This document shows, piece by piece, positions 28,077 through 48,563 of a stretch of 64,000 nucleotides of DNA. How positions within the stretch are numbered: the stretch's first letter is position 1; each line of letters opens with the position of its first letter. The notes under the pieces were generated by a model. That model ran no database searches, was not told where the DNA came from, and saw only the letters and a program-made list of their open reading frames with translations. The translations under genes and the position numbers were made by a program. The stretch comes from Thermasporomyces composti (GTDB taxonomy: Bacteria; Actinomycetota; Actinomycetes; Propionibacteriales; Actinopolymorphaceae), in assembly GCF_003386795.1 (NCBI RefSeq), contig NZ_QTUC01000001.1, positions 1 to 64,000 of the forward strand, written 5' to 3'.

Positions 28077-28104
28077 AGCGCCGATAATCGACATTATGTC
28101 AACT
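28077..28104. other. dif-like Xer recombination site
   Basis: Two 11-base arms around a 6-base centre: left AGCGCCGATAA, centre TCGACA, right TTATGTCAACT. The E. coli dif arms are GGTGCGCATAA and TTATGTTAAAT with a 6-base centre, so the right arm matches at 9 of 11 positions and the left arm ends in the same ATAA. The overall pattern CGATAAT-NN-ACATTATGTCAA is the one I recall for actinobacterial dif sites. It is AT-rich relative to its surroundings and lies 455 bp from a tyrosine recombinase gene. Confidence 0.7.
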
Positions 28105-28105
28105 A

Positions 28106-28134
28106 GCCTCCGGGGAGGCCTCCGAACGGAGGCC
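28106..28134. terminator. Two overlapping hairpins beside the dif-like site
   Basis: GCCTCC-GG-GGAGGC (28106-28119) and GGCCTCC-GAAC-GGAGGCC (28117-28134) share bases, so they are alternative folds. They begin one base after the dif-like site and could shield it from transcription. Confidence 0.5.
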
Positions 28135-28559
28135 TCATCCCGCTCTCCCAGCCGGCCCGCGCGCGGTCGTCGCTCTCGCGGCGCCGATCCCCGCGAACGG
28201 CTGGCGCACGTCGCCACCGCCGCCCACACCTGTCGTGTGTGCATGGGTCGGCACGTCGTGACGCCCACACGAGTCGCTGGTGAGACACGCCCGTGAGCGC
28301 AGACGGCACCGTGAGCTAAGACAGCATGCGAGCCGCGCGGAGATCGAACGTTGGTGCCTCGGCGGGCTGGAAGCCCGGCGCCTGGCTGCGAGGCGGCCGT
28401 GTCGAGGTGCGTGCCGTCGAGCACATCGAGCACAGCACCCGCCGCCGTCGCACGGTGTCGCTGGGCTGCCGACTCGTCCCCGGCGAGGCGAGCGGTCTCG
28501 GCGAACCGATGATCCATGTCGTGTAATAGGCAATCCACGACGTGGTATGGTTCCGCGCC
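28135..28559. other. Gene-free stretch before the tyrosine recombinase
   Basis: About 425 bases with no convincing protein. Frames on both strands are open but low-complexity. TATGGT at 28546-28551, 8 bases before the recombinase ATG, is a -10 candidate. Confidence 0.5.
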
Positions 28560-29621
28560 ATGGCGCGACCAAGATCATCGTCGGAGGTGACCGTCGAGGC
28601 CGCGACACTGGAGTACCTGGAGATCCTCGAGCGTCGCGTGGCCCGAGCCCAGCTCAGCCCCACCACCCTACTCGCCTACCGACGCGACCTCACCGAGTTC
28701 ACCACTCTCCTCGGCCCGGACAAGGCCCTCGACGAGATCGAGCCGGACGACCTGGAAGTCGCGCTGACCACCCTCGCCAAGTCTCCGGACCGCCGCTACA
28801 CCAAGGGCCTCAAGATCGCCGAGGACGGCTCCACTCCCCCTGGTCGCGGCCCACACTCACTGGCTCGCTGGTTCGCCGCCGTTCGCGGGCTGTTCCGCTG
28901 GGCCACCGACAAGGGGTACGTCCAGGTCGACCCGACGACCAGGGTCAGCCCGCCCCGTGTCCCCAAGCGAGCGGCGGGCGCGCGGATCGGACTCCAGCTC
29001 GACGAGGCGCTCACGCTCCGCTCCTCGCCGGCGAGCCTCCCACGCGAGGCGCTTCGGGCCGACCAGCGGTTGACCTTGCGGGACGAGGCGATCCTGCGCC
29101 TGCTCGTGGAGTCCGGACCTCGGGTGTCGGAGGTGTGTGGCGCCAACCGCAGCGACGTCCGTGTACACGAGGAGACCGGCACGCCGGTCCTGCACGTGCG
29201 CGGCAAGGGGGGCAAGAGCCGCGACCTGCCTCTCTCGAAGGCCACGCTCACGGCGATCGAGCGCTACTTGGCCGAGGAGCGACCTCCTCCCCCTACACCG
29301 AGAACGGACGACCGTGCCGAGCGCATCAAGGTGCAAGACGCCGCGAACGCATTGTTCGTCACCATCCGTGGCCGACGGCTCTCCCCGCGCGACGTCCAAC
29401 GCATGGTGGAGCGCTACACCCGCCAGTTCCTCGGCCGCCGGGCCACACCTCACTCGCTCCGCCATACCGCGCTGACCATCCTGGCCAGGGCCGGCGTCGA
29501 CATCGCCACCGTCGCGCAGATCGCGGGACACTCCAACCTCTCCACCACCTCCGTCTACATGGACGACTCCATGAGCGCGGCCGTCGAAGCCATCGCTCGC
29601 TCCCCCCTCGCCGGTGACTAG
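28560..29621 (+). CDS. Tyrosine recombinase, Xer-like, next to a dif-like site
   Basis: Site-specific recombinase of 353 aa with an N-terminal SAM-like core-binding domain (residues about 10-150) and a complete catalytic domain: Arg188 in SGPRVSEV, Lys216 in VRGKGGKSRDL, His298 and Arg301 in PHSLRHTAL, His324 in IAGHSNL and nucleophile Tyr333 in STTSVYMD. It is longer than XerC/XerD (about 300 aa); the excess includes an insert near EDGSTPPGRGPHS. No Shine-Dalgarno; TATGGT 8 bases upstream suggests a leaderless or near-leaderless message. It could be a dedicated single-recombinase Xer protein like XerS or XerH, or an integrase that exploits dif. Confidence 0.9.
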   Translation: MARPRSSSEVTVEAATLEYLEILERRVARAQLSPTTLLAYRRDLTEFTTLLGPDKALDEIEPDDLEVALTTLAKSPDRRYTKGLKIAEDGSTPPGRGPHSLARWFAAVRGLFRWATDKGYVQVDPTTRVSPPRVPKRAAGARIGLQLDEALTLRSSPASLPREALRADQRLTLRDEAILRLLVESGPRVSEVCGANRSDVRVHEETGTPVLHVRGKGGKSRDLPLSKATLTAIERYLAEERPPPPTPRTDDRAERIKVQDAANALFVTIRGRRLSPRDVQRMVERYTRQFLGRRATPHSLRHTALTILARAGVDIATVAQIAGHSNLSTTSVYMDDSMSAAVEAIARSPLAGD

Positions 29622-47411: not shown

Positions 47412-48563
47412 ATGTCGTCCTCCCCTGCGCTGGTCCCGCTGGCCGCGACGCAGGACCGGTCTGTCGACGTGGCCGTACCCGCCCTGGACGTCCGCGAGGC
47501 GCTCATCGAGGCGGTGAACCTGCTGCCGGCGCTACCCGCGGATGACCCGACCGACCGCTACACGATTCGCCGCCTCACCGCGCTTTGGTTGGAGGCGGAC
47601 AAGTCCCCGCACACGCGCCGGGCCTACTACGCTGACCTGGCGGCGTGGTTGAGCTGGTGTGACCGAACCGGACTGGATCCGCTCGCCGCACGTCGAGCGG
47701 ACGTCGACGCCTTCAAGACCACCTTGACGGTCAGAGGCCGAGACGGCCGGCCGCGGCCGGCGGCGCCCTCCACCGTGGCGCGGGTGCTGGCCGCGATCTC
47801 CAGTTGGTATCGGTACCTGGAGTCCAACGACGCCGCCGAACGTAACCCGGTCGCCGCGGTGAAGCGCCCCAAAGCCGCTCGGTCGGCGCCCCGACCGGCG
47901 CTGGAGGAACGCTCCGTCGCCCGCCTCCTCGACCACGCCGAACGCCGCGCCGAACGGCTGGGAACGGAGGCGGCCTGGCGGGACGCCGCGCTCGTAGCCC
48001 TGCTCTTCTACACCGGGCTTCGGGTGAGTGGGCTCACCGGAACGAGCGTGCGCGACCTGGACCACGACGCGGGTCACACGATCCTGCGCTACCGCGCCAA
48101 GGGTGGTCGGGACGACTTCCTGCCGCTGCCTCCTCCGGCGTTGGCGCCCCTGCACCGGTACCTCGAGATCCGCGCCCGCAACCGTGGTGTGCCACGGGAG
48201 AAGCTCACTGGCCCGTTGCTGGCGACGTCGCCGCATCCCCATGATCCCCGCAGGAGGGGCGACAAACCCTTGACGCAGCGGGACGTGTGGCGGACGTTGC
48301 GTCAGCTGGCGACGCAGGCCGGCCTGCCCGCCGCGAGTTCGATCTCTCCTCACACGGCACGCAGGACGGCCGGCACCGTGCTGCTGGCGCACGGCGTGCC
48401 GGTGCAGAAGGTCCAGGACATGCTCGGTCACGCCGACATCCGGACCACGCGCGACCACTACGACGCCCACCGCCACAAGCTCGACAGCTCCTCCGTCTAC
48501 ACCCTGGCCCAGATCCTCGCCGCCCACCGGCACGGCGGCGCTCAGGAGCCGCCGGGGACGTGA
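47412..48563 (+). CDS. Second tyrosine recombinase / integrase
   Basis: Site-specific recombinase of 383 aa. Core-binding domain about residues 45-165 (SPHTRRAYYADLAAWLSWCDRTGLDP). The catalytic set is complete: Arg204 in TGLRVSGL, Lys230 in RAKGGRDDF, His314 and Arg317 in SPHTARRTAG, His340 in MLGHADI and Tyr350 in TTRDHYDAH. GGAGG lies 7 bases before ATG. It differs clearly from the recombinase at 28560-29621, being longer at the N terminus with different motif surroundings. No att-like repeats were found around it, so its target is unknown. Confidence 0.9.
   Translation: MSSSPALVPLAATQDRSVDVAVPALDVREALIEAVNLLPALPADDPTDRYTIRRLTALWLEADKSPHTRRAYYADLAAWLSWCDRTGLDPLAARRADVDAFKTTLTVRGRDGRPRPAAPSTVARVLAAISSWYRYLESNDAAERNPVAAVKRPKAARSAPRPALEERSVARLLDHAERRAERLGTEAAWRDAALVALLFYTGLRVSGLTGTSVRDLDHDAGHTILRYRAKGGRDDFLPLPPPALAPLHRYLEIRARNRGVPREKLTGPLLATSPHPHDPRRRGDKPLTQRDVWRTLRQLATQAGLPAASSISPHTARRTAGTVLLAHGVPVQKVQDMLGHADIRTTRDHYDAHRHKLDSSSVYTLAQILAAHRHGGAQEPPGT

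Follow-up and report, generated by a model that had tools for sequence, protein, structure and literature searches.

To our knowledge, single-recombinase Xer systems have been described in cells without XerCD, and the mobile elements known as IMEX, which use the Xer recombinases of their host at dif, have no recombinase of their own. In XerS/difSL of streptococci and lactococci and in XerH/difH of epsilon-proteobacteria, a single recombinase of about 350-360 amino acids has its site close by, and together they constitute a module that lies near the terminus (PMC5357621, PMC2731167). XerL/dif of the Legionellales is again a single-recombinase system, with long uninterrupted inverted-repeat arms and a plasmid-borne relative in Coxiella; in Legionella, a distance of over 400 kb separates xerL from dif, and neither XerCD nor a canonical dif is known there (PMC9765430). 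Here we analyse a locus of Thermasporomyces composti at which a tyrosine recombinase gene adjoins dif, using as our window the first 64,000 nucleotides of contig NZ_QTUC01000001.1. The dif-linked pair of gene and site recurs in two orders, which suggests a second chromosome-unlinking system alongside the standard XerC/XerD, and our search of the open-licence literature turned up no account of an actinobacterial module of this kind.

The first-pass annotation of this window had placed a dif-like site of 11-6-11 layout 455 bp from a tyrosine recombinase, at the replication terminus, and both its coordinates and its placement hold. The site, at 28077-28104 on the forward strand, reads AGCGCCGATAA-TCGACA-TTATGTCAACT (28 bp), and the start codon of the recombinase follows 455 bp past it. 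The 28-mer has a single match in the 64-kb window at up to 3 mismatches (0 expected), and its 21-bp core has one match in the whole 4.37-Mb genome, again at up to 3 mismatches, which leaves no further copies and rules out a better dif elsewhere. In its layout, its CGATAA-N6-TTATGT core and its single copy it fits the canonical actinobacterial type, and judged by its sequence it is an ordinary actinobacterial dif, from which that of Frankia alni, given as CACGCCGATAATGCACATTATGTCAAGT (PMC3025954), differs little. The core pattern is matched in 332 of the 343 genomes of the host order and in 324 of 349 of another order. With dnaA at 2,161,203, and assuming a circular contig, the site lies about 53 kb from the dnaA antipode; the sign of the GC skew flips at dnaA and again close to the contig ends, and about 99 kb and about 65 kb, respectively, separate the site from the cumulative skew peak and from the fitted change point. 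Since it lies near both the dnaA antipode and the GC-skew change, we take the 28-mer to be the chromosomal dif.

The neighbouring gene (28560-29621, forward strand) is an intact open reading frame that runs from an ATG at 28560 to a stop codon at 29619-29621 and encodes 353 amino acids. The six catalytic residues already recognized in the initial reading, R188, K216, H298, R301, H324 and Y333, are invariant across 21 aligned proteins. PF02899 (residues 30-76) and PF00589 (residues 169-338) are the only domains found, and we class the protein as a simple Xer-type tyrosine recombinase without an arm-binding domain; its AlphaFold model is of low confidence (mean pLDDT 53). Its relation to XerC, XerD and XerS, left open at first, is narrowed by its scores against the NCBIfam equivalog models, which lie below all three cut-offs (155 bits against 335 for XerC, 136 against 330 for XerD and 99 against 267 for XerS) and below that for XerA as well. 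A phylogenetic tree that includes XerC and XerD groups the recombinase, its distant homologs and a second family discussed below (family B) in a clade of their own (99/98), with long branches involved. The genome encodes XerD at 3,990,289 (342 bits, above the NCBIfam cut-off) and, at 642,765, an XerC-like protein for which XerC is the best model; its 310 bits fall just under the XerC equivalog cut-off, a shortfall that probably stems from an insert close to the N-terminus, and it passes the broader tyrosine-recombinase model NF001399. The scores, the separate genes for both proteins and the tree placement exclude the recombinase as XerC or XerD, and since XerD and an XerC-like protein are encoded elsewhere, we regard it as a third Xer-like protein and not as a replacement. 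The initial suggestion of a single-recombinase Xer/dif unit was thus fair as to layout, but the cell also has XerD and an XerC-like protein, and the recombinase has a more likely partner than dif, described below. That suggestion was to be doubted if a better dif lay elsewhere and normal xerC and xerD genes were present; there is no other dif, although XerD and the XerC-like protein are encoded. About 19 kb from dif, the window contains another tyrosine recombinase (47739-48470, in an open frame ending near 48560; PF00589, 96 bits), with 29% identity to the dif-linked one.

Orthologs are present in all seven genomes from two genera of the family, T. composti and six Actinopolymorpha genomes (77-82% identity in all six sampled), and none was found in G001, from a third genus of the family. 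They recur in another order, in Saccharomonospora (75-80% identity), where nine are complete and one is cut short among 12 genomes; in the three Saccharomonospora genomes without a complete copy, dif is likewise missing from the contigs searched. The other 393 genomes sampled from that order (a 399-genome sample) contain no ortholog. Horizontal transfer is the simplest account of such a patchy distribution across two orders. The pairing of site and recombinase is conserved in these relatives, a point on which the initial reading had depended: all 16 complete orthologs have a single true dif 5' of the gene, mostly at a distance of 0.3-0.6 kb, which reaches as much as 1.9 kb in four genomes of Saccharomonospora. 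Across genera, DNA homology is confined to the gene itself, through to its stop codon, and to the 50 bp or so that precede it.

The leader of about 50 bp that the genera have in common contains a second 28-bp site, which the first-pass annotation had missed. At 28516-28543 on the forward strand, 16 bp upstream of the start codon, it reads ATGTCGTGTAA-TAGGCA-ATCCACGACGT, again in 11-6-11 layout and nearly symmetric, and it is present in all 16 orthologs with 0-6 mismatches from the consensus. The mean frequency of the top base is 0.96 and 0.88 in the two arms, 0.73 in the centre and 0.55-0.59 in the flanks. In G002, G003 and G004 the two 11-bp arms repeat each other perfectly in inverted orientation on either side of the 6-bp centre; taken alone, the symmetry score of several orthologs does not exceed background, and in our judgement the case for the site rests on conservation, not on that score. 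Between the upstream regions of G000 and S. iraqiensis the best common 28-mer has 0 mismatches, as opposed to 8-10 after shuffling. Within the 1.26 Mb surrounding the terminus, which make up roughly one third of the genome, no other copy occurs at up to 7 mismatches, as expected of a site that acts from sister to sister.

The same half-sites and spacing, GTCGT-N14-ACGAC, are also found 57-450 bp upstream of 37-39%-identical recombinases in three further genomes (450 bp in G139), against a background of 14 occurrences per 1.26 Mb. In one of the three, G156, the recombinase gene and dif are on different contigs. Because the site follows the gene across orders and also stands beside the G156 relative, away from dif, it goes with the recombinase and not with dif, and the cognate site of the recombinase is likely to be the one at 28516-28543. 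Judged by conservation, the gene therefore stands beside an inverted-repeat site of its own, the arrangement that defines a single-recombinase module. Direct action of the recombinase on canonical dif, whether by itself or together with XerC or XerD, would agree with the proximity to dif kept in 16 of 16 orthologs and with the 28-bp spacing of both sites, but we consider it very improbable: dif of the same pattern occurs in hundreds of genomes without the gene, XerD and an XerC-like protein are present, a separate conserved site follows the gene, and the DNA from dif to that site is not conserved across genera. At the G156 locus (L071), two palindromes lie 62 and 1119 bp before the gene for the 39%-identical recombinase, about 1 kb apart, with the same outer arms (AGTGTCGTAT...ACGACACT) and different centres.

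Across the orthologs (family A), the second site stops 14-42 bp short of the start codon, beside a -10-like element that reads TATGAT in most Saccharomonospora orthologs and TATGGT in T. composti (28546-28551, forward strand), where the aligned upstream sequences point to a putative leaderless promoter. Since the site overlaps the promoter region, the palindrome could be only an operator, for autoregulation or for some other regulator, while the recombinase acts at sites elsewhere. Viral contigs agree with such a role in part: the consensus pattern of the site was not found in them, looser palindromes with the same arms were, and a recombinase match lay in the same stretch at one of 12 such loci, the other 11 having none detected. 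Even so, a mere operator seems improbable to us, given the 28-bp 11-6-11 geometry with a centre less conserved than the arms, a distance to the gene that varies from that of family A to the 450 bp of G139, and the Xer-type sites found at the same place in family B and in a plasmid homolog.

The locus could also derive from a domesticated or decayed mobile element, in which an integrase entered at or beside dif and the remainder was lost, the second site being an att core or an operator. The alternative of an integrase that uses dif, raised in the initial reading, is kept here as a rival, although neither a second dif copy nor an element boundary was found. A scattered occurrence across two orders, at 75-82% identity, would suit such an origin, and so would the history of the locus in Actinopolymorpha (loci L167-L169, L060, L061 and L065), where the gene changed side of dif once, from right to left, while a flanking gene stayed put; A. 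pittospori and A. alba have the module to the right of dif, A. rutila and G002-G004 to the left and inverted, with the same spacing. In A. rutila, a copy of the last 73 bp or so of the gene (L065 11725-11792), about 660 bp beyond it, is by its sequence the remnant of a second gene copy. The side switch and this remnant fit a mobile element as well, and to that extent count against a module. Furthermore, dif is a known hot spot, about a quarter of proteobacterial dif sites being flanked by mobility genes (PMC2731167). An empty-site comparison within the family gave no result, G001 having no detectable synteny around dif. Against a mobile element, the 1.26 Mb around the terminus holds no second copy of dif or of the second site, each holder genome has one true dif, no mobile genes are apparent nearby in the list of open reading frames, and the gene is kept in every assembled dif region of Actinopolymorpha and Saccharomonospora. 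The ortholog dN/dS of 0.08-0.15, or about 0.1, also argues against decay, since it indicates that the gene is under purifying selection. Relatives in plasmids and phages have less than 60% identity (at most about 32% among the matches listed) and viral contigs contain no relatives of the recombinase; with no close relative in any of the three, we rejected a phage or plasmid origin of this exact recombinase family. Taken together, these observations make a mobile element a rather unlikely explanation, but the chief rival to a module.

Related recombinases are found beside dif in other genomes. Two homologs from genus g20 (37-38% identity) adjoin dif; two of the four listed g20 genomes were matched, which would also be compatible with a mobile element. 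The same is true of the observation that 15 of 86 further dif loci, taken from two orders as controls and not sampled at random, have a tyrosine recombinase gene within about 2 kb. All of these recombinases are transcribed away from dif, and most belong to family B. Members of family B stand beside dif in Kribbella-like and other actinobacteria (L180-L184, L144-L161, L221-L225 and L111) and have a symmetric site of their own that precedes or overlaps the start codon and reads GTCATGCATAA-N6-TTATGCATGAC or something very close to it; in one family B genome, both arms of the site carry a paired change (GGATAA/TTATCC). A similar site, TTGCTAGATAA-CCACTA-TTATGTAGCAA, lies 75 bp upstream of a homolog encoded by a circular plasmid of Rhodococcus opacus. 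The dif sites of one group often have the left arm xxxTTCGATAA, and in all five examined (L221-L225) a family B recombinase lies within about 1 kb. Family C, a third and more distant one (L109, L201 and L205), is located beside dif in two orders and has no clear site of its own. The distant homologs in G307 and G309 (Nocardioides-like) and in G196 show neither dif linkage nor a GTCGT site; all three genomes belong to the 11, out of 343, in which the dif pattern is not matched, and no altered dif was found in them, a palindrome in G307 having been rejected as a candidate for not being conserved in G309. As a tentative generalization, it is possible that many actinobacteria have a second, independent dimer-resolution system beside dif, consisting of recombinases from a third Xer-like clade, each paired with a symmetric 28-bp site, that have spread horizontally, are used by plasmids, and act alongside XerCD or conditionally replace it.

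For T. composti itself, we give about an even chance to the reading that gene and second site constitute a horizontally acquired, self-contained single-recombinase module, which would probably serve as an accessory dimer-resolution system. Two recombinase protomers would bind the two arms of the second site (half-site ATGTCGTG), sister copies of which would meet at the septum near dif; the recombinase would then exchange strands across the 6-bp centre and resolve a chromosome dimer into monomers, either alongside XerCD/dif or as its backup. Binding at the second site may at the same time control the promoter of the recombinase gene. We infer the binding, the recombination, the role in dimer resolution and any dependence on FtsK from sequence comparison. 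A second system for dimer resolution or terminus unlinking is the best-supported mechanism because FtsK-driven synapsis would be expected near dif; against it, such a system is not obviously needed in a cell that has XerD and an XerC-like protein. It is in precisely such cells that the T. composti-type module adjoins dif, unlike the known single-recombinase systems, and recombinases of independent families have come to occupy that position, in the same orientation, as well. If the module is active, there would be two dimer-resolution systems at one terminus, and one could ask why dif neighbourhoods gather recombinases and how single-recombinase systems come to replace XerCD. The module also comes with a defined 28-bp site that could be tested directly.

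Among known systems, XerC/XerD with dif resemble the T. composti pair in belonging to the simple tyrosine recombinases and in the 11-6-11 site, but the T. composti protein falls into a separate clade and below both cut-offs. With IMEX the module has in common horizontal spread and a location at dif. However, IMEX are flanked by two dif or dif-like sites, whereas this genome has one dif and no element boundaries were seen, and IMEX rely on XerCD, whereas the module has an intact recombinase gene of its own. The likeness to XerS/difSL and XerH/difH lies in a single recombinase and a nearby site that form a module near the terminus; difSL is 31 bp long with an 11-bp centre, in contrast to 28 bp and a 6-bp centre for the second site, and the recombinase scores far below the XerS cut-off. 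In layout, the module can be likened to XerL/dif through its single recombinase and, in G002-G004, its long inverted-repeat arms. XerS, XerH and XerL each act as the only Xer recombinase of the cell, which the T. composti protein does not: it occurs together with XerD, an XerC-like protein and a canonical dif, and, unlike the distant xerL of Legionella, its gene directly adjoins dif.
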